A DNA stretch of 64,000 bases, taken from Sphingomonas echinoides ATCC 14820. GTDB lineage: Bacteria; Pseudomonadota; Alphaproteobacteria; Sphingomonadales; Sphingomonadaceae. Under the pieces are notes generated by a model that worked only from the letters and a program-made list of their open reading frames with translations, made no database searches and was not told where the DNA came from. The stretch covers positions 2,178,888-2,242,887 of the forward strand of contig NZ_JH584235.1 of the NCBI RefSeq assembly GCF_000241465.1, written 5' to 3'. Position numbers and translations under genes: made by a program. This document shows positions 6,513 through 62,954 of the stretch, one piece after another. Position 1 is the first letter of the stretch. Each line of letters starts with the position of its first letter.

Positions 6513-6518
6513 TTGCGC

Positions 6519-31134: not shown

Positions 31135-32073
31135 TCACCACCAGATACGCAAGCCAGCCACAAACCGACGTTCGGTGGGATTTTCGCCAGCGAGCCGGCG
31201 AAAATCCGCCGTCTCGCCAAAGGAGCGCTCCCATACAAAGCCGACATAGGGAGCGATTTTCCGGTGGATCTCGTAGCGCATCCTCAAGCCAAGTTCGAGG
31301 TTGCTCAGGCCCCCGCCGAGCCCGCGCTCGGGTGCCGCCTTGCTGTAGGCGTTCGATTCCAGCTGCGGTACGAGGATGAGGCGGTTGGTGAGCAGCACGT
31401 CATAGGATGCCTTCAGACGTGCCGCGAGACGGCCATCGTCTCCAACATAGCCCGTCAGCTGGACATCGAACCAGTAGGGGGCCAGGCCCTCGATCCCCGC
31501 AGCGATCCAGCGATGGGCTCCCGGGCCGATGTCCTGACGCACGCCAAGGATCGTTCCCCAGAACGGGCGTTGTCCGTGCCACCAGAACGCCTCGACCGAG
31601 GATTCCGGATCGAGCCGCTCGCCGGACTGTTTCAGGCCCTGGCTCCGCAGCAAGAGCTTGTCGTTGTCCGGGCCATTGGTAATCTGACCCGACCAGCTGA
31701 TGCCCTGGCCTTGCTTGTTCGTGAGGAACTCGAGCTCATCCACGAGCACCTTGGCCACTGAAATTCTGTCGGCCATCTCGTAGCCGGGCAGCGTCGAATT
31801 CTTATAGCCGTCGGAATAAGCGTCCGGGTCGCGCGCATCGGCGCCGGGTTTTCCGCCACTCATGTCCATGCCGGGCATATTCATTGGGGGCGCGCTGCTG
31901 CCATCCTTTTGCTGGTCGCCCATCGGCATATCCGGCGACATGGCCTGATCGTTCGAGCCGGCCGCCTCGGCGTTGACCGCAGGCTTCACCTGCTGGCTGA
32001 GCGCCGGTCCGGCGACGGTGGTCATCGCGAGCCCGGTGAGGGCCAGCAACCATGTTGCGCGCGAGGTTGTCAT
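31135..32073 (-). CDS. copB: Copper resistance protein B, outer-membrane
   Basis: 312 residues. Signal ending GPALSQQ, a Met-rich N-terminal mature segment (MSPDMPMGDQQ, MNMPGMDMSGG) for Cu binding, then a beta-barrel region and C-terminal Trp (LRIWW). The conserved GYKNSTLPGYEMADR and FWWHGQRPFWGT are CopB hallmarks. ATG 32073 overlaps the copA stop by ATGA, so copA and copB are translationally coupled. Confidence 0.9.
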   Translation of the reverse strand: MTTSRATWLLALTGLAMTTVAGPALSQQVKPAVNAEAAGSNDQAMSPDMPMGDQQKDGSSAPPMNMPGMDMSGGKPGADARDPDAYSDGYKNSTLPGYEMADRISVAKVLVDELEFLTNKQGQGISWSGQITNGPDNDKLLLRSQGLKQSGERLDPESSVEAFWWHGQRPFWGTILGVRQDIGPGAHRWIAAGIEGLAPYWFDVQLTGYVGDDGRLAARLKASYDVLLTNRLILVPQLESNAYSKAAPERGLGGGLSNLELGLRMRYEIHRKIAPYVGFVWERSFGETADFRRLAGENPTERRFVAGLRIWW

Positions 32074-33800
32074 GCCACGACCACCTCGCGGAACATGCCC
32101 GCGGCCATGTGGTAGAGGAGGTGGCAGTGAAAGGCCCACCGGCCCATCGCGTCGGCCGTCACGCGAAAAGCCACGCGCTGGGCTGGTTGCACCGAAATGG
32201 TGTGCTTGCGGACCTGGAACCGTCCGTCGGGCGATTCCAAATCGCTCCACATCCCGTGCAGGTGCATCGGGTGGGTCATCATCGTGTCGTTGACGAGGAT
32301 GATCCTGAGCCGTTCGTTCGGCGTAAAATGAAGGGGTTTCGAGTCATTGAGCTTCACGCCGTCGAACGCCCACACGAAGCGTTCCATGTTGCCGGTCAGA
32401 TGAAGTTCAATCTCCCGCTGCGGTTCGCGAGGGTCTGCTGCCGGCCCTGCTGTCCTCAGATCCGCATAGGTCAGGGTCCGGCGCCCATTGCGCCGCAACC
32501 CGACGCCGGGATCATCGAGATTGGTGCGCGGAAAATCGACGCGCATATCTGTATTGGCCCCATATTCGGTACGCGCATGGCGGGCTTTTGGTGCCGTCTC
32601 GACCATGCCATGGTCCTGCCCAGCTGGTCCCATCCCGGCCATCCCGGCCATCCCAGCCATTCCACCCATCATGTCGATCGGATCGAGCCAGGAGCCGGGG
32701 TCGACCGGGGGAATGTCCGCGCTCATGTCGTCACGCGGCGCGAGTACGCCGTGGACAAAGCCGGTGCGGTCCATGGACTGGGCGAAGATCGCATAGGCCC
32801 TGTCGTCCGCGATGGTCGCGATGACGTCGTAGGTTTCACCGGGTCCGATCCGGAATTCGTCTACGTCGACCGGCTCGACCGGTTGCCCGTCGGCGGCGAC
32901 GACCGTCAGCATCAGGCCGGGAACCCGAACGTCGAAATAGGTCGCGGTTCCGGCACCGATGAAGCGCAGGCGAACCCTTTCGCCCTTCCTCGCAATTCCC
33001 GTCCAGCGCCTGGCGGAGGGGGCGCCGTTCAGGAGATAGGTGTAGGTAGCGGCCGATACGTCGCTCAGATCGGTCGGATTCATGCGCGCCTTGTTCCACA
33101 TCGCCCGCTTCGACAGAGCGCCGCTCAGCCCGAGCTTGCCGGCATCGCTCGCAAAATCGCCGACGGTCGGCTGCGCGAAATTATAATAGCCGCTCATCTT
33201 CTTCAGGTTCAGATAGACCTGAAGCGGAGCCTCGTCCGTCCAGTCGCTGAGCATGATCGTATAATCGCGGTCGGCTGCGAGAGGCGGTTCGCTCTTCGGT
33301 TCGATGATCATCGGGCCGTAGAGGCCCGTCTGCTCCGCCAATGTATGAGCATGGTACCAGAAGGTGCCGCTCTGCTTCACGACGAAGCGGTAGGTAAAGG
33401 TTTCGCCCGGCGCGATTCCACCAAAGCTGATCCCTGGCACGCCATCCATCTCCGTCGGCAGAATCAGGCCGTGCCAATGGATGCTGGTCATTTCGTCCAG
33501 GTTGTTCTTGACCCTGATCGTTACAGCGTCGCCTTCGCGCAGCCTGATCAGCGGCCCCGGCACGCTCCCGTTGACGGCGGTGGCGACACTGGCTTTTCCG
33601 GAATAATTGACCGTGACCCGGCCGATTTCGAGATCGAGTTCAGTGCCGCTCAGTACGGTCGGCGTCGTCACCGCCGGCACCGCGAACGCATGGGCGGGCC
33701 AACCCAGCGTGGCAAGAGCTGTCGCGAGCAAGAGACCTTGCACGAAGCCTCTGCGACCGGTGGTCGTCTCGGCGAAAGGGGGAAGTGGAGTCCGCATCAA
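32070..33800 (-). CDS. copA: Multicopper oxidase CopA of the periplasmic copper-resistance system
   Basis: 576 residues. Tat signal (TTTGRRGFVQGLLLATALA). Cupredoxin copper sites: IHWHGLI, FWYHAHTLAEQTGLYG, THPMHLHGMW and HCHLLYHMAAGMF. A Met-rich insert with repeated MAGM (near residue 390) precedes the last domain. Start ATG 33800 or 33797. Part of the minus-strand cluster Met/His-rich protein-copA-copB-csp. Sequesters and oxidises periplasmic Cu. Confidence 0.92.
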   Translation of the reverse strand: MMRTPLPPFAETTTGRRGFVQGLLLATALATLGWPAHAFAVPAVTTPTVLSGTELDLEIGRVTVNYSGKASVATAVNGSVPGPLIRLREGDAVTIRVKNNLDEMTSIHWHGLILPTEMDGVPGISFGGIAPGETFTYRFVVKQSGTFWYHAHTLAEQTGLYGPMIIEPKSEPPLAADRDYTIMLSDWTDEAPLQVYLNLKKMSGYYNFAQPTVGDFASDAGKLGLSGALSKRAMWNKARMNPTDLSDVSAATYTYLLNGAPSARRWTGIARKGERVRLRFIGAGTATYFDVRVPGLMLTVVAADGQPVEPVDVDEFRIGPGETYDVIATIADDRAYAIFAQSMDRTGFVHGVLAPRDDMSADIPPVDPGSWLDPIDMMGGMAGMAGMAGMGPAGQDHGMVETAPKARHARTEYGANTDMRVDFPRTNLDDPGVGLRRNGRRTLTYADLRTAGPAADPREPQREIELHLTGNMERFVWAFDGVKLNDSKPLHFTPNERLRIILVNDTMMTHPMHLHGMWSDLESPDGRFQVRKHTISVQPAQRVAFRVTADAMGRWAFHCHLLYHMAAGMFREVVVA

Positions 33801-34018
33801 TTCGATCTTTCGGAAGCAGCCCTAAAGTGACGCCGCGGTGCCGATTGCCACGCGGATGTATGTTCGTAGCACGGCGGACCCGGTAGGCGGGGCCAGGCGT
33901 ATGAAACCTGGCCGAAGAAGCGAAAGGCACACAGGGTCAGGATCCAATGGGGCATCCGTATCCGGCGGACCCTCGCATCTGTCTCGCCAACGCTGTCGGC
34001 CCTTCGCTTCCGCGTTTC

Positions 34019-34381
34019 CTACATGTCGTCGCCCATGGGCGCGGAGGGCATGTTGGCGGCGGGCGGTGCCTGGTCCGGCTTTGCCTTGGGCGCCATCGGC
34101 ATTTTGTCCTTGCACCGGGCCGTACCGCCACATCCCATCTGCATGCCGCCCGACGCGTTCATCCCCATCTGATGGTCATGCATCATCTCGTCATGCATCT
34201 GCCTCGCGCCATGCTTCATCCCTCCCTGATGGGCCTGATGCGCCTGGTGGTTTTGGTGCTTGACGAGTTTCGCCGGTACGGGCGGGGCCTCGTCCGCCCA
34301 GGCCTGTGTCGCCGAGAGCGCGACAAGTGCAGCGATGGCGGGGACGATCAGGCCAGCTTTGCGACGGAAAACATTCTGCAT
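34019..34381 (-). CDS. Met/His-rich secreted protein upstream of copAB
   Basis: 120 residues. Signal ending TQAWADE; then a His/Gln-rich and Met-rich segment (HQNHQAHQAHQGG, MHDEMMHDHQMGMN, CGGTARC) and a Pro/Met-rich tail ending PMGDDM. Probable periplasmic Cu(I)/Ag(I) buffer. Its C-terminus is shared with 58881-59261 (PMKDDM) and 60796-61134 (PMKDM). First gene of the copper cluster; the element at 34472-34489 lies 90 bases upstream. Confidence 0.75.
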   Translation of the reverse strand: MQNVFRRKAGLIVPAIAALVALSATQAWADEAPPVPAKLVKHQNHQAHQAHQGGMKHGARQMHDEMMHDHQMGMNASGGMQMGCGGTARCKDKMPMAPKAKPDQAPPAANMPSAPMGDDM

Positions 34382-34471
34382 GACTTGGCTCCTCGAAGAA
34401 TTGGAAAGGGGACCGCAAGATTTCGATCCGTTTGAAGATGTCGGCAGAAGTGCCGTTCGTGCCGCTCGGGG

Positions 34472-34489
34472 AATATACGTTTTGTTACG
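34472..34489 (-). promoter_or_regulatory. CGTAACA-N6-ATATT element upstream of the copper cluster
   Basis: On the minus strand CGTAACA, six bases, then ATATT, about 90 bases before ATG 34381. The same arrangement occurs at 35918, 40503 (second half diverged) and 63055. Alternatively read GTAACA-N14-CGAGCG, an extracytoplasmic-sigma-like promoter form. Confidence 0.45.
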
Positions 34490-34626
34490 GATGCCCGCCG
34501 TCGGGCGCGGCATGCGAACTATCATACCGGGCGATGAGACCCCCGGTGCGGCTTTGATCGTCGTACGGGCTGTCTCCCAGAAGCAGGCAGGGCTGATTGG
34601 AAAACGACGGAGACGATTACGACGCG

Positions 34627-35820
34627 ATGGATCGTCGAACGCTTCTCGCCCGCGGTCTGTCGGCTGCGTCGCTTGTGGGCGCCTCGTCCGTTGCCGGCCC
34701 TCTGGCGGCTCTCACCCACACAGGCGAAGGGTGGGGTTCCTTTGCGTGGACGCCTGCGGAGATAGCGATGGGCGATACGCTGATGATCTCCGCAGACGTG
34801 GCCGGTAGTCCCGTCCGCGCCATTCTGGACAGCGGAAGCGCCGCTTCGATCATCAATACGCGCCTGGTGAAGAGGCTGGGCATCGCCCCATCCGGGAAAC
34901 GTATCATTCGCGGCACCGGCGGCCGCGTCGAAGTCACCGAGATCAGCGACGTTGCCCTCACCGTCGCCGACGATCGTAGGCGCTTGCCGTTCGCCATCGT
35001 GAGCGACCTTGCGGCAATATCGTCGGCATTCGGCCGCCCGATCGATCTGGTCCTGGGTGAGGACATCCTCGCCGGACGCTGTGTCGCCCTCGACTTCACG
35101 CAGGATCGGATCGGCTTCGCGCAGACGGGGAGTTTTGCTGGTGGGAGCGGCTGGCGTCGCCTCCCTCTGACGCATGGGACACGTCGCGAGCTCCTGGTCG
35201 CCGCGTCTATCGGGGGCGGAAGCCCCGTGCAGCTCATCTTCGATCTCGGGAGTGCAAATGCGCTCATGCTGTCCACCGCCTTGGTGGCCGCGCAGAATCT
35301 CCTCGCCGGCAAAGCCCGGTCGACCGCGGCGTTGGGAAGCCTCGATGGGGTTCAGATCGTGACCGCCTTTGTCCTGGACGACGTTGCTATCGGCGGAGCC
35401 CACATTGTCGTGGTGCCGGTGGCGGGGCTGGATCATTGGCAATCCGACAGCGCGGTGGGCAGCATCGGATTGCCGCTTATCGCGCAATTCGATGTGATCA
35501 TGGATATCACCGCGGAAAGTCTGTGGCTGCGCCCGGCGCCGCCAAAGCGCAGGCTTCCGATGCTGAAAGACCGCTCAGGCTTCGGCTTGGCGGTTTCGCC
35601 TTCGGCCCTGACCGTCGCCCACGTCGCGGCCCATAGTCCGGCCGAGATGAGCGGCTGGTCGATCGGCGATCAGATCGTCCGTATTGACGGTCGGCCAATC
35701 AATGCCAGCTACACGCGCGGGGAGCTTTGGCGCTGGCGCTTCCTCCCTGCCGGCACGCACGTTAGGCTCGTCGACGGATCCGGTATCGTGCGGCGGCTGA
35801 CGCTCGCCGATTATTACTGA
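34627..35820 (+). CDS. Aspartyl-protease/PDZ protein, paralog of 449-1681
   Basis: 397 residues. Tat-like signal (DRRTLLARGLSAASLVGAS). Lobe 1 carries ILDSGSAAS, lobe 2 IFDLGSANA, then a PDZ-like domain with VRIDGRPINASYTRGELW and a terminal LADYY. Long stretches match the protein at 449-1681, including FGRPIDL.LG.D and LPMLKDRSG. ATG 34627 precedes the DRR. Stands between the copper cluster and the dehydrogenase genes. Function unknown. Confidence 0.75.
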   Translation: MDRRTLLARGLSAASLVGASSVAGPLAALTHTGEGWGSFAWTPAEIAMGDTLMISADVAGSPVRAILDSGSAASIINTRLVKRLGIAPSGKRIIRGTGGRVEVTEISDVALTVADDRRRLPFAIVSDLAAISSAFGRPIDLVLGEDILAGRCVALDFTQDRIGFAQTGSFAGGSGWRRLPLTHGTRRELLVAASIGGGSPVQLIFDLGSANALMLSTALVAAQNLLAGKARSTAALGSLDGVQIVTAFVLDDVAIGGAHIVVVPVAGLDHWQSDSAVGSIGLPLIAQFDVIMDITAESLWLRPAPPKRRLPMLKDRSGFGLAVSPSALTVAHVAAHSPAEMSGWSIGDQIVRIDGRPINASYTRGELWRWRFLPAGTHVRLVDGSGIVRRLTLADYY

Positions 35821-35913
35821 CGTTGACGCCGGTGTCGGCGTTCGGCCCCGATACACTGCTTCTAGCGTCCGATCCGCGGCGCATCATCCCGCCCTCGGAT
35901 TGGTCGCCCAGCA

Positions 35914-35935
35914 GCTACGTAACAATCCCAATATT
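35914..35935 (+). promoter_or_regulatory. GCTACGTAACAATCCCAAT element upstream of the aldehyde dehydrogenase gene
   Basis: The 19-base string at 35914-35932 recurs exactly at 40499-40517. Extended, it reads CGTAACA-N6-ATATT as at 34472 and 63055. It lies 114 bases before ATG 36046. A CAAAG follows 14 bases after GTAACA. Candidate promoter or operator. Confidence 0.55.
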
Positions 35936-36045
35936 TCGCAAAGTCGTCAGCTCGCACACCCCAACTCAGCCCTCCTGCGAGGGAGAATATCGGGTTCGCG
36001 GTGCCGCACACCTGGGGGCCCGGCCATGTGTAGCGGAGACGTTTC

Positions 36046-37566
36046 ATGTTCCAGCAAGCGATCGACACCGTCCGGGCGAAGGGTCACGCACCGTCACGCT
36101 ACGGCAACTTCATTGGCGGCCGATGGGTGGAACCCATTCGCGGGGAATATTTTACAGACCATAGTCCGATCAACGGCCGGCAGCTGGCCGAGATCGCCAA
36201 GTCTTCGCCAGAGGATGTGGAGGCAGCGCTGGACGCTGCTCACCGGGCGAAGGAGGGCTGGGCGCGCATGGCCCCTGCCGAGCGCGCAAAGATCCTCAAT
36301 TGCGTGGCCGACCGGCTCGAGGAGAATCTCGAGCTGCTCGCGCTTGCCGAGACCATGGACAACGGCAAGCCGATCCGCGAAACGCGCGGCGCCGATGTGC
36401 CGCTGGCCATCGACCACTTCCGCTATTTTGCCGGCTGCGTCCGCGCAGAAGAAGGGGCGATCTCGACAATCGACGACAAGACGATCGCCTACCATTTCAG
36501 GGAACCGCTGGGCGTCGTCGGGCAGATCATCCCGTGGAATTTCCCGCTGCTGATGGCGGCATGGAAGATCGCCCCGGCGCTGGCGGCCGGCAACTGCACC
36601 GTCATCAAGCCGGCCTCGCAGACACCTCTTTCGCTGCTGCTGTTCGCCGAGCTGACCGCCGATATCCTGCCGCCTGGGGTGGTAAATATCGTGACCGGAC
36701 CCGGCGCGTCGGTCGGGCGCGCGATTGCGGCCAATCCGCGGATTGCGAAAGTGTCCTTCACCGGCGAAACGACGACCGGCCGGCAGATCATGGGCTATGC
36801 CGCCGAGCATCTGATCCCGCAGACGATGGAGCTGGGCGGAAAGTCCCCGAACATCTTTCTGGCAGACGTCATGAACGAGGACGACAGTTTCCTCGACAAG
36901 GCACTGGAAGGCTTCGCCCTGTTCGCGTTCAACAAGGGCGAGGTCTGCACCTGCCCCTCGCGCGCGCTCGTCCATGAATCGATCTTCGATCGGTTTGTCG
37001 AAAGAGCGGTCGCGCGCGTCGGGGCGATCCGGGTCGGCGACCCGCTCGATCCGCTCACGCAGATGGGCGCGCAGGCATCGGAGGATCAGCTTCACAAGAT
37101 CCTGGGCTATATCGACATCGGCAAGCAGGAAGGCGCCGAGTGCCTGACGGGGGGACAGCGCGCCCGTCCGGGAGGCGAGTTCGACGACGGCTTCTTCGTC
37201 GAGCCCACCGTGTTTGTCGGCAACAACAAGATGCGGATTTTCCAGGAGGAGATTTTTGGGCCGGTCCTGTCGGTGACGCCGTTCAAGACGGTCGAAGAGG
37301 CGATCTCGATCGCCAACGACACCATCTATGGATTGGGCGCCGGCGTGTGGACCCGCAGCGGCAATGATGCCTATCGGCTGGGCCGCGCGATCGAGGCGGG
37401 CCGGGTGTGGACCAATTGCTACCATGCCTACCCGGCGCACGCGGCATTCGGAGGTTACAAGGCCTCCGGATTCGGGCGCGAAAACCACAAGATGATGCTC
37501 GACCACTATCAGCAGACCAAGAATCTGTTGGTCAGCTACGACGAGACGTCCCTCGGCCTTTTTTGA
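36046..37566 (+). CDS. NAD(P)-dependent aldehyde dehydrogenase (ExaC/AldB type)
   Basis: 506 residues. NAD-fold and oxyanion motif [19 protein letters not shown] with the catalytic Glu, and [12 protein letters not shown] with the catalytic Cys: the acetaldehyde/ExaC-AldB subgroup signature. Full length. 57 bases upstream of the alcohol dehydrogenase on the same strand, so together they would interconvert an alcohol and its acid, most likely ethanol and acetate. Confidence 0.88.
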
Positions 37567-37623
37567 CCCGGCTCACTCCGGCTGCGGCTAACCCGCGCGG
37601 CCGTCACCGCAAGGAACTCCACT

Positions 37624-38661
37624 ATGAACAAGACAATGAAGGCCGCGGTCGTACGCGAATTCGGCCAACCGCTGGTGATCGAAGAAGTGCCTGTCACGAT
37701 GCCGGGCCCGGGCCAGATCCTGGTGAAGATCGCGGCGACCGGCGTCTGTCATACCGACCTTCATGCGGCCGAGGGAGACTGGCCGGTGAAGCCCAATCCG
37801 CCCTTCATCCCAGGCCATGAGGGTGTCGGTCATGTGGTCGCGGTAGGTAGCGGCGTGACCTATGTGAAAGAGGGCGACCGTGTCGGCGTCCCCTGGCTCT
37901 ACACGGCCTGCGGGCACTGCGTTCATTGCCTCGGCGGATGGGAAACCCTGTGCGAGGCCCAGCAAAATACCGGCTATTCGGTGAATGGCAGTTTTGCGGA
38001 ATATGTTCTTGCCGATCCCAATTATGTCGGTCACCTGCCGGCCAATATCGGGTTCATCGACATCGCCCCGATCCTGTGCGCCGGCGTGACGGTCTACAAG
38101 GGGCTGAAGGTCACCGAGACGAGGCCCGGTAATTGGGTGGCGATCTCGGGCATCGGCGGTCTCGGACATATGGCCGTGCAATATGCCAAGGCAATGGGGC
38201 TCAATGTCGTGGCCGTCGACATCGACGACGCCAAACTCGCGCTCGCGGAGCGACTGGGCGCGGATCTCACCGTCAACGCGCGCAACGTCGACCCTGCCGC
38301 ATTCATCAAGAAGGAGATCGGTGGCGCCCATGGCGCACTTGTCACAGCAGTGTCGCCGATCGCATTCCAGCAAGCACTCGGCATGGTCAGGCGGGGAGGC
38401 ACGGTGGCGTTGAACGGGCTTCCGCCAGGCGACTTTCCGCTGTCGATTTTCGACACGGTCCTGAACGGGATCACTGTTCGTGGCTCCATCGTCGGCACGC
38501 GGCTCGATCTGCAGGAAGCGCTTGATTTTGCCGCTGAGGGCAAGGTTCGCGCGACCGTCACGACGGACACGCTGGAGAACATCAACGATATTTTCGCGCG
38601 CATGCATCATGGTGAAATCGAGGGGCGGATCGTGATCGATTTCGAGGGCGGCGCCCACTGA
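37624..38661 (+). CDS. adhP: Zinc-dependent alcohol dehydrogenase, AdhP type
   Basis: 345 residues. Catalytic zinc ligands in [15 protein letters not shown] and PGHEGVGHV, structural zinc four-Cys lobe in [15 protein letters not shown], and NAD-binding [13 protein letters not shown]. The ethanol-active AdhP/AdhT branch is the best fit. Follows the aldehyde dehydrogenase by 57 bases. Confidence 0.87.
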
Positions 38662-54021: not shown

Positions 54022-55425
54022 TTACCGCGCGGCCGGCGCGATCCACGAAACCGTCGTCATGATGGCGACGCCAACCATGACCAGACAGGCCGCGCCACCG
54101 AGCAGTTGCAGCCGCCGGGGAATGGGGTGACCGTTCATCGCTTCGGAATCCGAGCCGAGCCATATCACCAGGGCAATAAGTGGGGCTGCAACAAAGCCGT
54201 TGATGACAGCACTCCACAGCAGCGCCTGCATGGGACTGATCGGCGAGAAATGAACGAGAATGCCCAGAATGCCGGCCGAAGCTATCACGCTGTAAAAAGC
54301 CTTGGCATTCCGAGGTGCCAGCCCAAGGCCCGCACGCCACCCAAAGGCTTCGGAGACCGCATACGCCGCCGAGCCGGCTAGAACCGGGACGGCAAGAAGG
54401 CCGGTCCCGATGATACCGCTGGCAAAAAGTGCAAAGGCAAAGTCGCCCGCCAGCGGCCTGAGTGCTTCGGCCGCCTGCGCGGCCGTATCGATCTGCGTAA
54501 TACCAGCGATATGCAAGGTCGCGGCGGTGGTTATGATGATAAAAATGGCAATGAGGTTTGAAAAAAACATACCGAACCAGCTATCGAGGCTAATCCGGCG
54601 CTCTTCGCCGGCGCTGACTTCCGATGTCGAAAGGCTTTTCGCTTTAGCTCTGGCATCTTCTGCTTCCTGGGAGGCCTGCCAGAAAAACAAATAGGGGCTG
54701 ATCGTGGTGCCGAAGATCGCGGCTACCAGCATCCAGGCGCTTGAGTCCGGCATGCTCGGTAGCAGGACTCCACGCAGCACATCGCTCCATGACAGGTGCA
54801 CGGCAAATGCCGTAGCCGCATAGGCCAGCAATGCCAGCGTCATCCATCTCAGGAAACGCGCGTAGCGCTTGTAGTCGAGGAAGGTCTCTAACAGCGTTGA
54901 GAGCAAGGCGAATATGATGACCCAGAGGTGCGGCGCGCCGCCGCCGATGAGCGACATTGCCGAACCCATCGCTCCCAGATCAGCACCAAGGTTGATGACA
55001 TTGGCGACCACGAGGAGCAGAACGACCGTTCGGAGCAGCGCGAGCGGGCAGCGCTTGCTGATCGCCGCCGTCAAACCTTCGCCCGTCGTTCTGCCGATCC
55101 GCCCGCACGTCTCCTGCACAGCTGCGGCGAGCGGCCAGGTAAGCAACATCGTCCAACCGAGCGTGTAACCGTAAGCCGCTCCCGCTTGCGCATAGGTTGC
55201 AATCCCGCTTGGATCGTCGTCGGCCGCCCCGGCAATGAATCCCGGGCCAAAAATCCGCCCGATACTCTGAAGCCGGTGAGCGTGCGGGATCGCCACTTGC
55301 CCCTCGCCCGCGGCCTGGCCAGGGGTCGGCGGCAAGTGCAGATCGGCTTCAAGAAGCGTGGTCCCTTGCCCGGCCTGCCCGGGCAAGGGGACACAGCGTT
55401 CCGCAGGATCATTGGGCGCGTTCAC
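54022..55425 (-). CDS. Nramp-family divalent metal transporter with non-canonical TM1/TM6 motifs
   Basis: 467 residues, 11 predicted membrane helices. The Nramp fold is recognisable, but the canonical DPGN (TM1) is DDDPSGIATY and the MPHN region (TM6) is IFGTTISPYLFFWQ. GTG 55425 is preceded by GAGGAG and starts NAPNDPAE. The ion is therefore not predictable from the usual Mn/Fe motif; Mg- or proton-independent relatives are possible. Last gene of the minus-strand redox cluster. Confidence 0.8.
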   Translation of the reverse strand: MNAPNDPAERCVPLPGQAGQGTTLLEADLHLPPTPGQAAGEGQVAIPHAHRLQSIGRIFGPGFIAGAADDDPSGIATYAQAGAAYGYTLGWTMLLTWPLAAAVQETCGRIGRTTGEGLTAAISKRCPLALLRTVVLLLVVANVINLGADLGAMGSAMSLIGGGAPHLWVIIFALLSTLLETFLDYKRYARFLRWMTLALLAYAATAFAVHLSWSDVLRGVLLPSMPDSSAWMLVAAIFGTTISPYLFFWQASQEAEDARAKAKSLSTSEVSAGEERRISLDSWFGMFFSNLIAIFIIITTAATLHIAGITQIDTAAQAAEALRPLAGDFAFALFASGIIGTGLLAVPVLAGSAAYAVSEAFGWRAGLGLAPRNAKAFYSVIASAGILGILVHFSPISPMQALLWSAVINGFVAAPLIALVIWLGSDSEAMNGHPIPRRLQLLGGAACLVMVGVAIMTTVSWIAPAAR

Positions 55426-55511
55426 GGTGACACTCCTCGCCTGGGCGAAGATGTCGCCGGGTTTGATAATTGGAGGGCTCTTCGATGGCAGGTCGGGTTT
55501 GGCGAGGATTT

Positions 55512-56207
55512 TCAGTGCACTTTGACCATGCCGACACCCTTGATATTGTTGAACGAGTCGGTCTGGTGGCAACTGAAGCATTGATCAACCCGCGCCCGTT
55601 TTTCACCGCTGATCATCTTGTCCATCATTTCGAAGTGCATCATGTTGTGGCTCGGCGGCGGCTTGTGGCACTGCGAGCATTCGGTGGATTTGGGGCTGGG
55701 GTGCAGATACCCGCTGATTTTCCAGCTCGTTGTGGTGTGGCAGCTTGCACAATCACTGCCGAAGAACCCCAGGTGCTTGTCGCGGGGGGCGTGACAGGAC
55801 TGGCAATCGAGAGGAGTGTCACGCCCTGTCGCCCGTTCGGCGATGCGCTCGAGAACCTGGTGATCCATCCGGACCGGACGGAGCGTGTTTCCCTGATGCT
55901 CGATATGGCAGCCACTGCATTCCTTGATGTTGACATGGAAAGCGGTCGAAGGCTTCTTCAGGATTTCCGGCGAAGCTGCGTGGCAGGCTATGCAGGTCTC
56001 GGCCTTGATGCCCCGATTGGGTGTATGGCAACTCTCGCATTTGCCCTCGAGAAAAGCATGGGCGTTCGACAGCGAACCGGGTCGAACCGACGCCGCCCAT
56101 TGCGGCAGCGCGGCGCTGCCCGAGCGGTAAATGGTAAGGGGGATGATGATCGCGGTGGCCAGGACCAGTGTCGCGAGGATCAGGCAGACGATACCAGTCC
56201 GCTTCAT
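55512..56207 (-). CDS. Membrane-anchored heptaheme cytochrome c
   Basis: 231 residues. One N-terminal helix (GIVCLILATLVLATAIIIPL) and then seven CxxCH heme-c sites (CESCH, CIACH, CSGCH, CQSCH, CASCH, CSQCH, CFSCH). Spacing resembles cytochrome c3/class III multiheme proteins rather than NapC/NirT. Periplasmic. ATGA overlap with the cytochrome-b-like gene upstream shows coordinated production. Confidence 0.85.
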   Translation of the reverse strand: MKRTGIVCLILATLVLATAIIIPLTIYRSGSAALPQWAASVRPGSLSNAHAFLEGKCESCHTPNRGIKAETCIACHAASPEILKKPSTAFHVNIKECSGCHIEHQGNTLRPVRMDHQVLERIAERATGRDTPLDCQSCHAPRDKHLGFFGSDCASCHTTTSWKISGYLHPSPKSTECSQCHKPPPSHNMMHFEMMDKMISGEKRARVDQCFSCHQTDSFNNIKGVGMVKVH

Positions 56208-56887
56208 GGCCACCACCGCAAGCCGAAGTAGACGCTGCTCCAGATGTGGATCGTCAGCAATCCGTACATGATGATCGCAGCGACAATATGCACGACGACC
56301 CACTTGTCGAGCGTGGCCTTGATGACGTCGCGTGCAGTAATCGTGAATTCGAGGTCGGATATTGCGCCAAGGAGCGAGTCCAGCGGCAACCCTGACGGAT
56401 CAACGACGCTTTGATGGCGCAGATCGGCCGATACGGCGGCAAGCACATCATAGCGGTCGCGCAGAACCTTGAGTTCCTTTTGCTGAAACCGCAATTCCTG
56501 CCCGACCTGCGCCAGATAATATCGGCCAATGAAGCCCGTGACGACGACAGTCAGCATCGCGATCACGAGGGCGATGCCGATCGGGCTTTGAAACTTGTGC
56601 CCCGAATGGATGATTCCGAGCAGAGCGCCGATCGCGCCGGCATACACATGGAAGCTGAGCAGTCCTCCGAGGGAGACGAGGCGCTGCGTGCGCTCCTTGA
56701 CCCACGCCTGCCGCTTTACGATGCTGTAGACGAGCAGAAGCACGAAAAGCAGGGCGGCGGCGATGCCGAACAGTCCGCCTGCCAGGCTCCCGGGGAAACG
56801 CGGTGCGGAATGCAGCAGGAAGGCCGGGACCAGCAGCGCAAGAGCGCTCAGCAGAGCGCCGACCGTTACTTTCTCGGTTTCGGTCAT
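56204..56887 (-). CDS. Four-helix membrane protein resembling a b-type cytochrome
   Basis: 227 residues. Helices near 10-30, 37-60, 75-95, 100-120 and a final one (VVVHIVAAIIMYGLLTIHIW). His residues in FHVYAGAIGALLGIIHSGH and HIVAA/TIHIW could ligate heme. Between them a cytoplasmic helical loop with SADLRHQSVVDP. No family name is certain. Position between the Fe-S reductase gene and the heptaheme gene suits an electron conduit through the membrane. Confidence 0.6.
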   Translation of the reverse strand: MTETEKVTVGALLSALALLVPAFLLHSAPRFPGSLAGGLFGIAAALLFVLLLVYSIVKRQAWVKERTQRLVSLGGLLSFHVYAGAIGALLGIIHSGHKFQSPIGIALVIAMLTVVVTGFIGRYYLAQVGQELRFQQKELKVLRDRYDVLAAVSADLRHQSVVDPSGLPLDSLLGAISDLEFTITARDVIKATLDKWVVVHIVAAIIMYGLLTIHIWSSVYFGLRWWP

Positions 56888-56888
56888 T

Positions 56889-58868
56889 TCATGCGTCCAC
56901 CACGAGATCACCCACCGATTTTGCCTGGCAGGCGAGGATGATGCCGTCAGCCTTCTCGTCGGCGGCAAGCGCGTCTTCCACTTCCATCGTCACTTGGCCT
57001 TGCCGCAAGGGGACCTTGCACCTTCCGCAGATGCCGACCCGGCATTCATAGTCGATGGCCACGCCAATCGCCTCGGCCGCCTCGAGGACGGATTGGTCGG
57101 GCGCGAGCGCGCCGTTCTTGCCGGACTTCGAAAATGAGATCGTCGCCTGCGCAGAAGGAATGGCGGGCGGCGTCTGCGGGGTGGCCGATGCCTGGCTGTC
57201 GGTCGCGGTCGCTGCCGGTTCATCTTCAAGGACGGGGCCGCCCTTGGGGGGGGCAAATTCCTCGGTCTTGACCTGCTCCGCCGGCACCTTGAGCTGCGCA
57301 AGCGCCGCCTTCACCGCGTCCATCATCGGCGGCGGGCCGCACAGGTGAACGCGCCTGCTGGCGATTTCGGGAACGGAAGCGGCGATGAAATCGGCCGTCA
57401 AATAACCGGAAGGCCCGGCCCAGTCGGTCCCTTCGGGCTTTGCGACGATGGAGACGATGTGAAGCTTGTGGTGGCGCCGCGCCAGATAGTCGCATTCCTC
57501 GCGAAAGATCAGATCCGTCGGCGTGTTGACACCGTAGAGGAGGTAGATGTCGTGTTCATAGGAGCGGTCCGTCAGGCTGCGCAGCACACTCATCATCGGT
57601 GTGATGCCGACTCCGCCGGCGATCAGGACGATCCCCTCGGCTTCCTTGCCGGTGAAGAAGAACCGGCCCGCGGGCGCCGCAATCTCGAGAAGGTCGCCCG
57701 TGGCGGCATGATCATGGAGATGGCGCGATTCCAGCCCATATTGTTCGCGCTTGATCGTGAGCTCGATATAGTCGCGCTGTGTGGGCGATGACGAGATCGT
57801 GTAGGATCGGCGGACCTTCTGGCCTTCGATCTCCGAGGTGATCGAGGCATATTGGCCGGGCAGGAACGTGAACGGCATCGGCCCGCGGTTCGGTTCCATG
57901 AGCCGGAACGTCTTGACGCTCGGGGTCTCGTCGAAGATCGCGGTGATCCGCAGGACGCCTTTCCACAGTCGCGGCGCTGCCGGCGTGGCGCTTCCGGGCG
58001 TAGCTGCGCCTGCAGGAGCAGCGGGCGCCGGCACGATAGCGGCCGGGGCCGGAGAGGTGGCCGGCCTGGCCGGTGGTGTAGCCCCGCCTGGTGCGAGCCG
58101 CTCCATCAAGCTTGCGATGCGGCGCAGCCGCGCCCATCGGAGTAGCAGCGCCGCAACCAGAGCCGCCGCCAGCAGCGCCATCGCGATCAGGTGCCACCAG
58201 GAAAGGCCCGCCAGCTCGTTTCCGTATGCCATCTGGTCGCTTTCGGCAAAACCCGACTGGGTCTTGAACCAGCTCAGGGCAATCTGCCGGGGAGGGCGGC
58301 CCTCTTCGAGGCCCCTGAGCGCGCCTGCTCCGCTGTCCGCGAGTGCGAGGCCTTCGCGAGCGCCCCTGATCGCATCCTGGGCTCCTTTCGTGTCGTTCGA
58401 CATGAGAGCGTGGTGAAGCCGGGCTTGCTCCGCGGTCAGGACCTCGGCGCCCGACCCCAGGCGGGCGAGAGCCGCGGCGCGTACCGTCCGTCGTGCCTCA
58501 TCGGTCAGGACGGGCCAGTCCATCAGCGAGGGGTAGAAGGGTTTGGCGCCGCCGTTCCCACAGCATCCCGCCGGTCCCGCGCCCATTTTGGCACCCGGCG
58601 ACGGCGCCATCATCCCTTTCATCATCGCCGCCATGGGATCGGCAGCTTTCGCCGCGGCCGGAGCTGCTGCCCCCATCACGTTGCCCGCTGGCATCGCCGC
58701 TGGCGCGGCGGCTCCGCCCGCTGGATGATGCGACGCGTGCTCGGACTCGGCCATCTGCGCCGACGCTGGCGGTGATCCGGAGATCATCGCCAGCGCGAGT
58801 GCGATACCGCTCGTCCTCAAAGCCCGCGATAGCTTGAGGCCGGTGATGTTGTTGTGAGGGCGCGTCAC
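56889..58868 (-). CDS. Fusion of a Met/His/Cys-rich exported domain, one membrane helix, an FAD/NAD(P)H reductase and a 2Fe-2S ferredoxin
   Basis: 659 residues. Signal (21-38), then His/Met/Ala/Pro-rich segment with AGCCGNGG (100-107) and a helical periplasmic part to ~220. TM helix 226-248. Pro/Ala linker, then ferredoxin-reductase domains: FAD RRSYTISS (353-360), NAD IAGGVGITPMMS (416-427), CGPPPMM. A Glu/Ala/Pro linker leads to a plant-type ferredoxin with Fe-S Cys609, 614, 617 and 647 (ECRVGICGRCK, ACQA). The reductase half faces the cytoplasm. I have not met this exact architecture. Confidence 0.85.
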   Translation of the reverse strand: MTRPHNNITGLKLSRALRTSGIALALAMISGSPPASAQMAESEHASHHPAGGAAAPAAMPAGNVMGAAAPAAAKAADPMAAMMKGMMAPSPGAKMGAGPAGCCGNGGAKPFYPSLMDWPVLTDEARRTVRAAALARLGSGAEVLTAEQARLHHALMSNDTKGAQDAIRGAREGLALADSGAGALRGLEEGRPPRQIALSWFKTQSGFAESDQMAYGNELAGLSWWHLIAMALLAAALVAALLLRWARLRRIASLMERLAPGGATPPARPATSPAPAAIVPAPAAPAGAATPGSATPAAPRLWKGVLRITAIFDETPSVKTFRLMEPNRGPMPFTFLPGQYASITSEIEGQKVRRSYTISSSPTQRDYIELTIKREQYGLESRHLHDHAATGDLLEIAAPAGRFFFTGKEAEGIVLIAGGVGITPMMSVLRSLTDRSYEHDIYLLYGVNTPTDLIFREECDYLARRHHKLHIVSIVAKPEGTDWAGPSGYLTADFIAASVPEIASRRVHLCGPPPMMDAVKAALAQLKVPAEQVKTEEFAPPKGGPVLEDEPAATATDSQASATPQTPPAIPSAQATISFSKSGKNGALAPDQSVLEAAEAIGVAIDYECRVGICGRCKVPLRQGQVTMEVEDALAADEKADGIILACQAKSVGDLVVDA

Positions 58869-58880
58869 CTGAGGACTTCC

Positions 58881-59261
58881 TTACATGTCATCCTTCATGG
58901 GCATCGGCTTGTCCGCGGGCATCGGCGCCGGCTTCGCGGCGGCGGGTTTCGGATGGCGGTGCGGGGCGGCCTTGTGCTTGGCCATCGGCTTCTTCTTCAT
59001 GCCGCAGCATCCGGCCTTCTTCGCCATCGGAGGCATGGCCGCGGGCATCTTGTCGTGCTGCATCGGCATGCCGGCCATGCCCGGCATCGTGTCGTGCTTC
59101 TCCATCATGCCGCCTGCCGGCATCGACCTGTCGGCGGGAGGCGCGGGCTGGGCCGAAGTCTGGCCGGCGGCTTGCCCTTGGGCGGAAGCGATGGCGGGCG
59201 ACAGCAAGATGGAACCTGCCAGCGCAAGCGCGCGCAAGCGGAAAGAACCTGTCATGATCAT
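58881..59261 (-). CDS. Met/His-rich secreted protein heading the redox cluster
   Basis: 126 residues from ATG 59261 (ATG 59255 also possible). Signal ending AIASAQG. Mature part has MMEKHDTMPGMAGMPMQHD, AGCCGMKKK and HKAAPHRHPK, and ends PMKDDM. The AGCCG motif also occurs in the next gene's product (56889-58868). Likely periplasmic metal-binding partner of that reductase. Twelve bases upstream of it. Confidence 0.75.
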   Translation of the reverse strand: MIMTGSFRLRALALAGSILLSPAIASAQGQAAGQTSAQPAPPADRSMPAGGMMEKHDTMPGMAGMPMQHDKMPAAMPPMAKKAGCCGMKKKPMAKHKAAPHRHPKPAAAKPAPMPADKPMPMKDDM

Positions 59262-59402: not shown

Positions 59403-59774
59403 TCAATCATCGCGTGGGGTTCCTGTCGCTCTCTGCCACGGCCAACGGCCCTTGATCTCGACCTCGAGCGAGAAACTCAGGAAGGTTCGTATCAGTACGA
59501 TGCCGGCAAGGACCGCGAGGCTGCTGAGCGTGGGCTGGATCGCGATGGTGTTGATGATGTCGGCCGCGACCAGGAATTCGAGTCCGAGAAGAATGGCTTC
59601 GCCAAGGCTCGACCTGAAGCTGCCCACCACATGCTGGTCGATCGGACCTTTCACGGATTGCTGCAGGAATCTGATCAGCGAAGAACCCGCGCCCACGACG
59701 ATGATCGCCGTCCCCGTGACTTCAATTGCCCGCGTGATCCAGTGGATGCCCTCCACGATGAGGCTCTCGGTCAT
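59403..59774 (-). CDS. DUF1622-family membrane protein
   Basis: 123 residues. VTGTAIIVVGAGSSLIRFL, GSFRSSLGEAILLGLEFLVAADIINTIAI and IRTFLSFSLEVEIKGRWPW match DUF1622. Three helices. ATG 59774 overlaps the upstream gene by ATGA. Function unknown. Confidence 0.8.
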   Translation of the reverse strand: MTESLIVEGIHWITRAIEVTGTAIIVVGAGSSLIRFLQQSVKGPIDQHVVGSFRSSLGEAILLGLEFLVAADIINTIAIQPTLSSLAVLAGIVLIRTFLSFSLEVEIKGRWPWQRATGTPRDD

Positions 59775-60232
59775 CGCGGGCACCGGTGCATCACGTGGCG
59801 AACCCTGCGACCGCCCAATGCGACGAGGCGATCGGGTTCGCGTTCGATGATCACCATGCGTTTTTCGGGCGGCCCCGGGGCGGCGGTCTCCGGCCGCGCC
59901 AGGGAATAGAAGATGGTGTCACCGAGTTCGTACCACTTCCCGGTGGCGCGCGGTGTCCGGTCGGGCAAACGGAGTTCGTTGTAAGAGCCGTCTGCCCTGA
60001 ACTCCCAGGCTGTGCCGGTCTCGCATCCGGACCGGGCATCGAACGACCAGATACCGACAAGATCCGTTTTCGTGCCACGACCCTGGGCGGGCTGGCTCTC
60101 CGCAACAGAAGGCTGGGCCAGGCCGCCAGCTGCAGCGACGATAGCCAAGGCCAAACCTGCTCGGCGGCGGAGCGACGGGGACCGGCCGGGCCAAAGCAAC
60201 GGCGGACCCAAGCGCTGCAAAACGGGTCTCAT
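59771..60232 (-). CDS. Secreted hypothetical protein with a lipocalin-like opening
   Basis: 153 residues. Signal ending SVAESQ. Mature domain begins LVGIWSFDARSGCETGTAWEFRADGSYN and continues as short beta strands, recalling small lipocalin-like proteins of the DUF5004/GxWxF type. Overlaps merR by ATGA and DUF1622 by ATGA, so a three-gene unit. Confidence 0.5.
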   Translation of the reverse strand: MRPVLQRLGPPLLWPGRSPSLRRRAGLALAIVAAAGGLAQPSVAESQPAQGRGTKTDLVGIWSFDARSGCETGTAWEFRADGSYNELRLPDRTPRATGKWYELGDTIFYSLARPETAAPGPPEKRMVIIEREPDRLVALGGRRVRHVMHRCPR

Positions 60233-60693
60233 GAGGGCGCCTTCACCGCGCCGGCTGCAGGAGGGTTTCCGTGCCCTGGTGCGTCTTCCCTGGGAATGCT
60301 CGCGAGATGCGCGAGGATCGGGCAATCCGCGATGGGAATGTCGATCGAGCATTGGGCGGACAGGGCGGACAGGGCGGTCTTGATGCGGGTCAGATCATCG
60401 ATACGGGTGGTCGCTTCATTGATCTTGCTCTCGGTGATGGCCAGGACATCGGCAGTTGTCGCGGTGTCGGACGCGCGCAAATCGAGCAGGCTTCCGATTT
60501 CGCGAAGCGTGAAACCCAGCAGCTGCCCCTTGCGGATGAACCGCACGCGCTCGAGATCGGCGTCGCCATAGGTGCGGTAACCGGCAGAAGACCGGGCGGG
60601 CGGAGGAAGCAGACCGTTGCGCTCGTAATAGCGGATGGTATCGGGACGGATGCCGAGCGCACGCGACAGCTTTCCGATCGTGAAATATGTCAT
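60229..60693 (-). CDS. MerR-family regulator (heavy-metal type)
   Basis: 154 residues from ATG 60693. DNA-binding TIGKLSRALGIRPDTIRYYERNGLLPPPARSSAGYRTY, dimerisation helix, then the metal loop CSIDIPIADCPIL with two Cys eight apart. Leads the merR-lipocalin-like-DUF1622 unit. A perfect dyad lies 16-39 bases upstream. Cu, Zn or Cd response is possible. Confidence 0.8.
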   Translation of the reverse strand: MTYFTIGKLSRALGIRPDTIRYYERNGLLPPPARSSAGYRTYGDADLERVRFIRKGQLLGFTLREIGSLLDLRASDTATTADVLAITESKINEATTRIDDLTRIKTALSALSAQCSIDIPIADCPILAHLASIPREDAPGHGNPPAAGAVKAPS

Positions 60694-60708
60694 GGCGCGT
60701 CTCCGTTG

Positions 60709-60732
60709 CCGCGACCATTCGAAAGGTCGCGG
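60709..60732 (-). promoter_or_regulatory. Perfect dyad upstream of the merR gene
   Basis: CCGCGACC and GGTCGCGG face each other around ATTCGAAA, 16 bases from ATG 60693. Operator for the adjacent regulator is the natural reading; no -35/-10 with 19-base spacing is obvious. Confidence 0.5.
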
Positions 60733-60795
60733 CATTATTCCTTCGATTTGATCTTGCTCGGCCCAGGCAGCGCCGGGCGTTCCCGCCCGCTTTGC

Positions 60796-62092: not shown

Positions 62093-62455
62093 TTATTTCT
62101 TGCGGAGCTCGACGATGTCGTGAACTGCGGGCGTGCCGTCGGCGACGCTCACATGCGCGAAATGGTCATCGAAAATATGGTCGACCCTGACGTGGCCGAT
62201 GAGGTCTCGACGATAAGCGGGGCCAGTTCCTTTGAAGCCGGAGCCGGGCAGCGTCTTCATGCGATAGACGTCGAGCACCTGTCCGACTGTCGCGCCATCG
62301 GCTTTGCCGACACACACGATCGTTCCGGTCGTGTCTTTGCCGACAATGGATCCGCGCATGAAGAATGTGTGGCCGATGCCGGTCGCCAGAGCGGGAACCG
62401 CGCCGGCGAGGGCGATACCAGCGAGGGCCAGCGATATTGATTTCCTGAAACGCAT
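62093..62455 (-). CDS. Secreted 120-residue protein, first of a tandem pair
   Basis: Signal (LALAGIALAGAVPALA), then GIGHTFFMRGSIVGKDTTGT, VCVGKADGATVGQVLDVYR and a C-terminal VGHVRVDHIFDDHFAHVSV leading to HDIVELRKK. Nearly the same sequence as the next gene (62595-62954). Start ATG 62455. No function recognised. Several His residues in the last third could bind metal. Confidence 0.7.
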   Translation of the reverse strand: MRFRKSISLALAGIALAGAVPALATGIGHTFFMRGSIVGKDTTGTIVCVGKADGATVGQVLDVYRMKTLPGSGFKGTGPAYRRDLIGHVRVDHIFDDHFAHVSVADGTPAVHDIVELRKK

Positions 62456-62594
62456 CTCGATTCCTTTCAATTCATGTCCCCGAGCGCCAAGTCCGGTGTT
62501 CGTCGTTTGATTGCGAGCGCTGGTGCCGGTCTGGTTTCGCAGCGAGGTGTCGCGTTGATGGTAGGGGACGGCGATCGCCGTCCCCGCTGCCAGC

Positions 62595-62954
62595 TTATTT
62601 CTTGCGGAGTTCGACGATGTCGTGGACCGCGGGAGTGCCATCGGCGACGCTCACATGCGCGAAATGGTCATCGAAGATATGATCGATCTTGACGTGCCCG
62701 ACGGCCACGCGACGGAAGCCCGCGCCGGGGGTCTTCGAAGGACCAGGCGTGCTTTGCACACGGTAGACCTCGAGGACCTGTCCGACAGTCGCGCCATCGG
62801 CCTTGCCGACGCAGACGACCGTTCCGGTCGAGTCTTTGCCGACGATCGATCCGCGCATGAAAAAGCTGTGGCCGATGCCCTGGGCGAAGGTGGGCGCGGC
62901 GCCGAGCATGGCGAGGCCAGCAAGCGCGATGGTGATCTTCTTCTTGAGCAACAT
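62595..62954 (-). CDS. Secreted 119-residue protein, second of the tandem pair
   Basis: Signal (LAGLAMLGAAPTFAQ), then GIGHSFFMRGSIVGKDSTGT, the same VCVGKADGATVGQVLEVYR and HIFDDHFAHVSV. Recent tandem duplication of the gene at 62093-62455, with close DNA identity in the 3' half. Its upstream region contains the CGTAACA-N6-ATATT element. Confidence 0.7.
   Translation of the reverse strand: MLLKKKITIALAGLAMLGAAPTFAQGIGHSFFMRGSIVGKDSTGTVVCVGKADGATVGQVLEVYRVQSTPGPSKTPGAGFRRVAVGHVKIDHIFDDHFAHVSVADGTPAVHDIVELRKK

Follow-up and report, generated by a model that had tools for sequence, protein, structure and literature searches.

A conserved gene trio of Sphingomonas echinoides as a candidate NAD(P)H-driven conduit for electrons to the periplasm, with linkage to copper genes

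Three adjacent genes, designated B, C and D, were identified in a 64,000-nucleotide stretch of Sphingomonas echinoides ATCC 14820 (contig NZ_JH584235.1, positions 2,178,888 to 2,242,887; hereafter the window) that may encode a quinone-independent conduit leading electrons from the reduced nicotinamide adenine dinucleotides, NAD(P)H, to the periplasm, where Cu(II) would be the most likely substrate for reduction. This reading, to which a probability of about 0.5 is given, is based on features of the sequence, namely domain content, topology, conserved ligands, constant gene order and linkage to copper genes; from these we infer heme occupancy, the direction of flow, metal binding and copper as the acceptor. 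The trio is flanked by two further genes, A and E, and all five open reading frames (ORFs) were confirmed on the minus strand at 54022-59261 of the window:

58881-59261, minus strand: A, a protein rich in methionine (Met) and histidine (His), 126 amino acids with 18 Met
56889-58868, minus strand: B, a fusion of an exported head with a reductase for flavin adenine dinucleotide (FAD), NAD(P) and 2Fe-2S, 659 amino acids
56204-56887, minus strand: C, a b-type-like membrane protein, 227 amino acids
55512-56207, minus strand: D, a cytochrome with seven CXXCH motifs, 231 amino acids
54022-55425, minus strand: E, an Nramp protein, 467 amino acids from a GTG start (the longest ORF at the site starts at 55581)

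Their coordinates match the layout given in the first-pass annotation of this DNA, that of five consecutive minus-strand genes with gaps of 86 bases or less and one ATGA junction: 12 bases separate A from B and a single base separates B from C, C and D share a 4-base ATGA overlap, and 86 bases lie between D and E.

Searching with C alone as the query returned 28 loci from 84,980 species genomes, together with 52 plasmid records. Scanning of 51 loci with profiles (near-copies included; 31 clusters, the window among them, at 90% identity of C) found B before C in every one and D after C in 50, the sole exception (L029) ending at a contig edge. The conserved unit is thus the B-C-D trio, and the synteny that the first-pass annotation had proposed to look for in other genomes was found for these three genes. 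Hosts include sphingomonads, Legionella species, Acetobacter, Bradyrhizobium, Variovorax, Methylophaga, Pseudoxanthomonas, Spirosoma and Pontibacter; the order is shared by further families and by two phyla (Pseudomonadota and Bacteroidota), and so is not a product of chance. The three proteins have correlated pairwise distances, with coefficients of 0.84-0.92 when 30 of the 31 dereplicated sets are compared and phylogeny is not corrected for. The trio is a rare accessory that is often plasmid-borne, being present in 10 of 199 genomes of the window's family, and 26 of its 52 plasmid records are typed as conjugative. When 398 genomes of the phylum were searched by profile, 28 reached an expectation (E) value of 1e-10 or less, seven of them strong (E<1e-76, the host's own genome included) and 21 weak; the weak matches (E from about 1e-18 to 1e-10), when inspected, were a sister family or other proteins, and were kept out of the copper-family counts. 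In some records the RefSeq product names are 'iron reductase' for C and 'cytochrome c3 family protein' for D.

For protein B, the Pfam domains FAD_binding_6, NAD_binding_1 and Fer2 were all identified above cut-off and match 20 of 20 relatives at E values up to 0.1, with the FAD, NAD and 2Fe-2S residues invariant across 20 aligned rows. Ahead of this reductase, which is predicted to be cytoplasmic, lie a signal-peptide-like start (judged by eye), an exported His/Met head and one transmembrane helix (225-243) with a strongly positive flank on its C-terminal, inner side. The head of the window protein carries the motifs HxxHHP and MMKGMM. HxxHH, mostly as HxxHHP, was found in 30 of 31 dereplicated heads, where shuffling of each head would be expected to give 0.11; in two of the 30 (L031, L039) it lies upstream of the annotated start, and the B protein lacking it is the Acetobacter copy, the ORF of which has no head. 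Its His columns are 93-97% identical compared with a median of 37% for head columns, the linkers of the head being variable, and a Met-Met motif is also conserved. The conservation of these two motifs suggests metal binding on the outside of the membrane. No Pfam match to a Spy/CpxP-like or Metal_resist domain was found in the head among 20 rows, and hhalign comparison with neighbouring Spy-like proteins gave an E value of 0.26, by which a relation was not seen. A model of the head, from an FYPSLM motif through the transmembrane helix, is a helical hairpin followed by that helix (predicted local distance difference test, pLDDT, 84.7).

Transmembrane two-heme cytochromes b (Ferric_reduct, NOX, cytochrome b) have two helices in each of which two His are spaced by about 13 residues. 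Protein C of the window fits this arrangement, with two H-x13-H pairs, H80/H94 and H200/H214, that would hold the hemes. Five membrane segments are predicted (about 7-25, 39-57, 75-93, 103-121 and 197-215), and the description of C in the first-pass annotation as a four-helix protein is therefore not retained. Across 22 aligned C proteins H26, H80, H94, H97, H200 and H214 are invariant; all 31 dereplicated C proteins have two such pairs, as do all nine sister proteins inspected. From the positive-inside flanks, H80 and H200 are placed towards the cytoplasm and H94 and H214 towards the periplasm. With regard to family, window C scored 11.4 bits against Ferric_reduct (PF01794; cut-off 28) and 20.6 bits against DUF4405 (PF14358; cut-off 26.7), and at E values up to 1 these families match 7 (best 3.8e-4) and 15 of 22 relatives, respectively. 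Since these matches, and others to cytochrome b561, are all weak, C was placed in none of the three families. NCBIfam gave no usable name for C, and a sequence search of solved structures returned a best E value of 0.024, to unrelated proteins. The AlphaFold2 model of C, built from 15 sequences, has a pLDDT of 73.5.

Protein D was found to possess c3/c7-type multiheme domains above the Pfam cut-offs (PF09699, PF14537 and PF14522), with one N-terminal membrane segment followed by the seven CXXCH motifs, and is predicted to be periplasmic. All seven motifs and nine further His are invariant in 19 aligned D proteins, a number of ligands sufficient for bis-His coordination, so that the hemes would be of a type suited to electron transfer and not to catalysis. 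A sequence search of solved structures gave one weak c3 match (E value 0.014). Cytochrom_C_asm genes, required for c-heme attachment, are present in the host genome. The transmembrane path proposed in the first-pass annotation, with FAD and 2Fe-2S inside, b-hemes across the membrane and seven hemes outside, agrees with these domains, with the predicted topology and with the invariant ligands.

On the proposed mechanism, the cytoplasmic half of B would take hydride from NAD(P)H onto FAD and pass single electrons on to 2Fe-2S; C would carry them across the membrane by way of two b-hemes, from the inner H80/H200 to the outer H94/H214; and the membrane-anchored heptaheme D would distribute them in the periplasm. 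There the exported head of B, with its HxxHHP and Met-Met motifs, may bind copper together with A where A is present, and reduction of Cu(II) would supply Cu(I) to storage or efflux specific for it under copper stress. The potential of NADH is about -320 mV. That of Cu(II)/Cu(I) is given as +160 mV (PMC7558416). Electron transfer from NAD(P)H to Cu(II) is thus downhill and that from Cu(I) to NAD+ is not, so that outward flow is to be expected in copper settings. Cu(I) made beside a multicopper oxidase could possibly load Cu(I)-specific efflux, Met-rich proteins or the four-helix copper-binding proteins that were found near some copies of the trio. The electrons probably end in the periplasm, because no outer-membrane cytochrome conduit is named in 17 plasmid stretches that were viewed, whole genomes not having been searched for one.

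The metal link suggested in the first-pass annotation is supported and points more narrowly to copper. As copB is present in 154 of 199 genomes of the family, its presence or absence is uninformative, and its distance from the trio was used instead, copB being sought irrespective of position in 15 carrier genomes with 17 copies of the trio measured. It was found within 10, 20 and 30 kilobases (kb) of 6, 11 and 13 of the 17 copies, where uniform placement would give 0.21, 0.43 and 0.64 (P 5.5e-15 at 20 kb); this model ignores the clustering of metal genes on islands and plasmids. Any of seven looser metal markers was identified in 20 of 26 trio neighbourhoods and 4 of 17 control stretches (Fisher P 0.0013), a set that includes markers not specific for copper and some queries taken from the same loci, which favours the trio neighbourhoods; for multicopper oxidase or CopB the counts were 13 of 26 and 1 of 17. 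Among the 17 plasmid stretches viewed, 12 contain a multicopper oxidase, a named copper gene or a heavy-metal ATPase, the marker in one of these (Glaciecola) being at the stretch edge, and the five with neither a copper nor a heavy-metal marker are from Pontibacter, Rhizorhabdus, Methylocystis, Alteromonas and Qipengyuania. In other loci 'heavy metal-responsive' regulators were found upstream of the trio. In the window itself, about 22-25 kb separate the trio from copB, and the island that holds the trio also carries multicopper oxidases, a resistance-nodulation-division (RND) efflux set and P-type ATPases:

31135-33800, minus strand: copB and a multicopper oxidase (Pfam)

These two genes are part of a set at 31135-38661 that also appears by eye to include aldehyde and alcohol dehydrogenases. 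A similar set follows the trio on other plasmids, in one stretch as aldehyde dehydrogenase (ALDH) and AdhP only, at the stretch end, and it resembles the ALDH-AdhP-CopA-CopB cluster reported to be induced by nickel in Sphingobium ba1 (PMC5557971). The words 'cytochrome', '2Fe-2S' and 'ferredoxin' are absent from the main text of that paper.

Multicopper oxidases alone were found at 12 of the 26 loci, and such frequent neighbours could be taken to be the electron acceptor of D, the whole then serving to lower oxygen or to regenerate the oxidase as a periplasmic NAD(P)H:O2 oxidoreductase. This is considered very unlikely, since no oxidase is named in several of the plasmid stretches viewed and we know of no c-type cytochrome partner for a multicopper oxidase of this kind. 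It is also conceivable that copper is the cause of damage and not the substrate, with D feeding periplasmic thiol, methionine-sulfoxide, peroxide or cytochrome c maturation steps harmed by copper stress. A ccm set for cytochrome c maturation lies behind the trio on a Methylophaga plasmid (L034:11751-14750), a protein of the vitamin K epoxide reductase family is named near the Rhizorhabdus copy, and periplasmic cytochrome c biogenesis and thiol enzymes are among the copper targets named in PMC7558416. Such a repair or protective role is regarded as unlikely, as the 17 plasmid stretches viewed include no product named as Msr, Dsb or peroxidase and the conserved head of B has His/Met motifs of metal type.

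A number of observations weigh against the preferred reading. Proximity of copB shows that islands are shared and does not show function; copB is missing from 3 of the 15 carrier genomes and, in a fourth, is confined to other contigs. Markers are lacking close to the window's own copy, with none in L002, L013 and L019 and only a weak P-type ATPase match in L010. Multicopper oxidases oxidise Cu(I), which is the opposite of the proposed reaction. B is split over frames in L016 and L108, no intact D ORF was picked up in L108, and one further D (L072) has six CXXCH motifs. The model of C gave no Foldseek match at E values up to 0.001, the VIA-align rows being generic helical bundles, and the B head model likewise gave no match with an E value up to 0.001 among solved structures. 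Finally, on two Alteromonadales plasmids (Alteromonas and Glaciecola) a single ORF separates the trio from a [NiFe] hydrogenase operon downstream of it, and these copies keep the HxxHH head.

The hydrogenase-linked copies raise an alternative in which the trio is a general, reversible conduit that joins NAD(P)(H) to any redox partner in the periplasm and, beside a hydrogenase, could run inward, from H2 to NAD+; the copper linkage would then be real while the partner varies. In both genera the trio adjoins hydrogenase and hyp genes, and, judged by gene order, C and D have their homologues in orf1 and cyt of the previously studied Alteromonas macleodii hydrogenase cluster. These two genes were reported to be dispensable for maximal hydrogenase activity in Escherichia coli (PMC3102683), which would fit an electron partner bypassed by such an assay. 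A sister set, B'-C'-D', was also identified in other genomes of the phylum (L076-L089, e.g. L079:8197-11031), its parts being found in 14 stretches (B' in 9, C' in 13 and D' in 13). B' is apparently without an exported head, C' has about 192 amino acids and D' has 8-12 CXXCH motifs; metal markers were found around it in 0 of the 14 stretches, four of which are under 13 kb. Against the alternative, the two hydrogenase-linked copies make up a single clade within a fork that is unresolved and consists mostly of copper-linked copies, the Alteromonas copy keeps Met-rich neighbours, copB linkage is far above that of uniform placement, and in another A. macleodii strain the hydrogenase genes share one genomic island with a copA cluster (PMC8478169, where the available part of the paper does not mention the trio). 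A minor share of belief is given to this alternative. The hydrogenase-linked copies and the marker-free sister set nevertheless indicate that the module is a conduit first and more general than copper; the preferred reading of Cu(II) reduction is then kept in the form that copper is our best guess for the acceptor in this branch.

Each part of the trio is of a known type, and the assembled set would be a variant of the NAD(P)H-driven transmembrane heme reductase. In Rnf-MmcA of Methanosarcina and in CymA/Mtr a multiheme cytochrome c likewise receives electrons that have crossed the inner membrane, with the differences that Rnf is another membrane complex and that CymA/Mtr draw on quinol and use outer-membrane conduits. 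Eukaryotic heme metal reductases of the Fre/Steap type and NOX also combine NAD(P)H, flavin and paired-His transmembrane b-hemes with reduction of metal on the outside, in contrast to which the trio has its reductase and heme-b parts on separate genes, B and C, not in the single-chain flavocytochrome b of NOX/FRE, and has an added 2Fe-2S and a seven-heme cytochrome c outside. RclA of E. coli is not a transmembrane heme system. It is, like the proposed trio, a bacterial Cu(II) reductase, described in connection with intracellular copper (PMC7527725). The Fre/Steap-type reductases are treated in PMC7558416, as is CcoG, a membrane-bound, iron-sulfur cupric reductase of bacteria for which Cu(II) reduction aiding copper tolerance is reported; CcoG differs in having two 4Fe-4S clusters, and its donor is described there as not known. 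The CcoG model TIGR02745 gave a single match in the genome (C1:1482467) and none at the trio. PepSY_TM proteins such as CrpH (PMC13038864) perform a similar heme-mediated, copper-related reduction on the periplasmic side and belong to a different family, no PepSY match being found by Pfam in B, C or D of the window. In the available part of PMC3102683, orf1 and cyt are treated as hydrogenase-cluster genes of unassigned function, with B and copper undiscussed.

Searches of open-licence literature found no published description of the three-gene system, in line with the statement in the first-pass annotation that the combination was not known as a described one. Tentatively, and with less confidence than is given to the preferred reading, the trio may represent a bacterial periplasmic metal reductase of a new class, independent of quinones and consisting of a B with a copper-binding head, a two-heme C and a heptaheme D, spread on copper-resistance plasmids, with one lineage apparently re-used beside a hydrogenase. 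If this is true, a mobile NAD(P)H-driven reduction of periplasmic Cu(II) would fill a gap in the copper redox control of copper-resistant bacteria, and the trio would link NAD(P)H to periplasmic multiheme cytochromes without quinones, a property of use in wiring hydrogenases and in engineering electron export. The conserved HxxHHP head and the H-x13-H pairs make the metal-reduction and conduit claims directly testable by mutation.

The neighbours of the trio were found to be less constant. A has a signal-peptide-like start (by eye) and a Cys-Cys pair, gave no Pfam match and was found by sequence in 15 of the 28 loci, with other Met-rich or Spy-like genes preceding B in some loci; it is likely to be a metal binder peripheral to the trio. 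The canonical metal site of Nramp proteins consists of DPGN in the first transmembrane segment and MPH in the sixth. E matches Nramp (PF01566) at 268 bits against a cut-off of 29.8 and carries DPSG and ISPY at these positions; it is a divergent Nramp-family transporter, a local addition outside the conserved unit. The first-pass annotation had read the five genes together as metal reduction coupled to Nramp transport, for which the position of E 86 bases downstream of D and a divalent metal cation transporter after the trio on the Rhizorhabdus plasmid may be cited. An Nramp gene accompanies the trio only in close relatives of the window copy (9 of 28 loci in one survey and 2 of 26 in another) and E departs from the canonical motifs, by which a joint role with Nramp is not supported and its coupling to metal reduction is considered highly improbable.

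Upstream of A, on the same strand, the following were identified:

59403-59783, minus strand: DUF1622 membrane protein (Pfam)
59771-60283, minus strand: ORF with no Pfam match, between the MerR and DUF1622 genes
60229-60735, minus strand: MerR-family regulator (Pfam), heading the same-strand run

As these genes overlap or lie close to one another, the transcription unit may be longer and may extend upstream of A through DUF1622 to MerR. A promoter scan gave five promoter-like sites, none of them upstream of A or MerR. At 11 of 26 loci DUF1622 is a neighbour of the trio, on one side or the other. Two small exported proteins are encoded in tandem at 62093-62641 and 62595-62954 of the window, the one tested being without a Pfam match; relatives of these were found near the trio in several loci, with a similar-looking one upstream in Alteromonas (L107:5764-6120). 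Elsewhere in the window, two proteins with aspartyl protease and PDZ domains are encoded near metal genes (449-1681 and 34597-35820), and cytochrome c domains were found fused to an FTR1 iron permease at 6513-8492.

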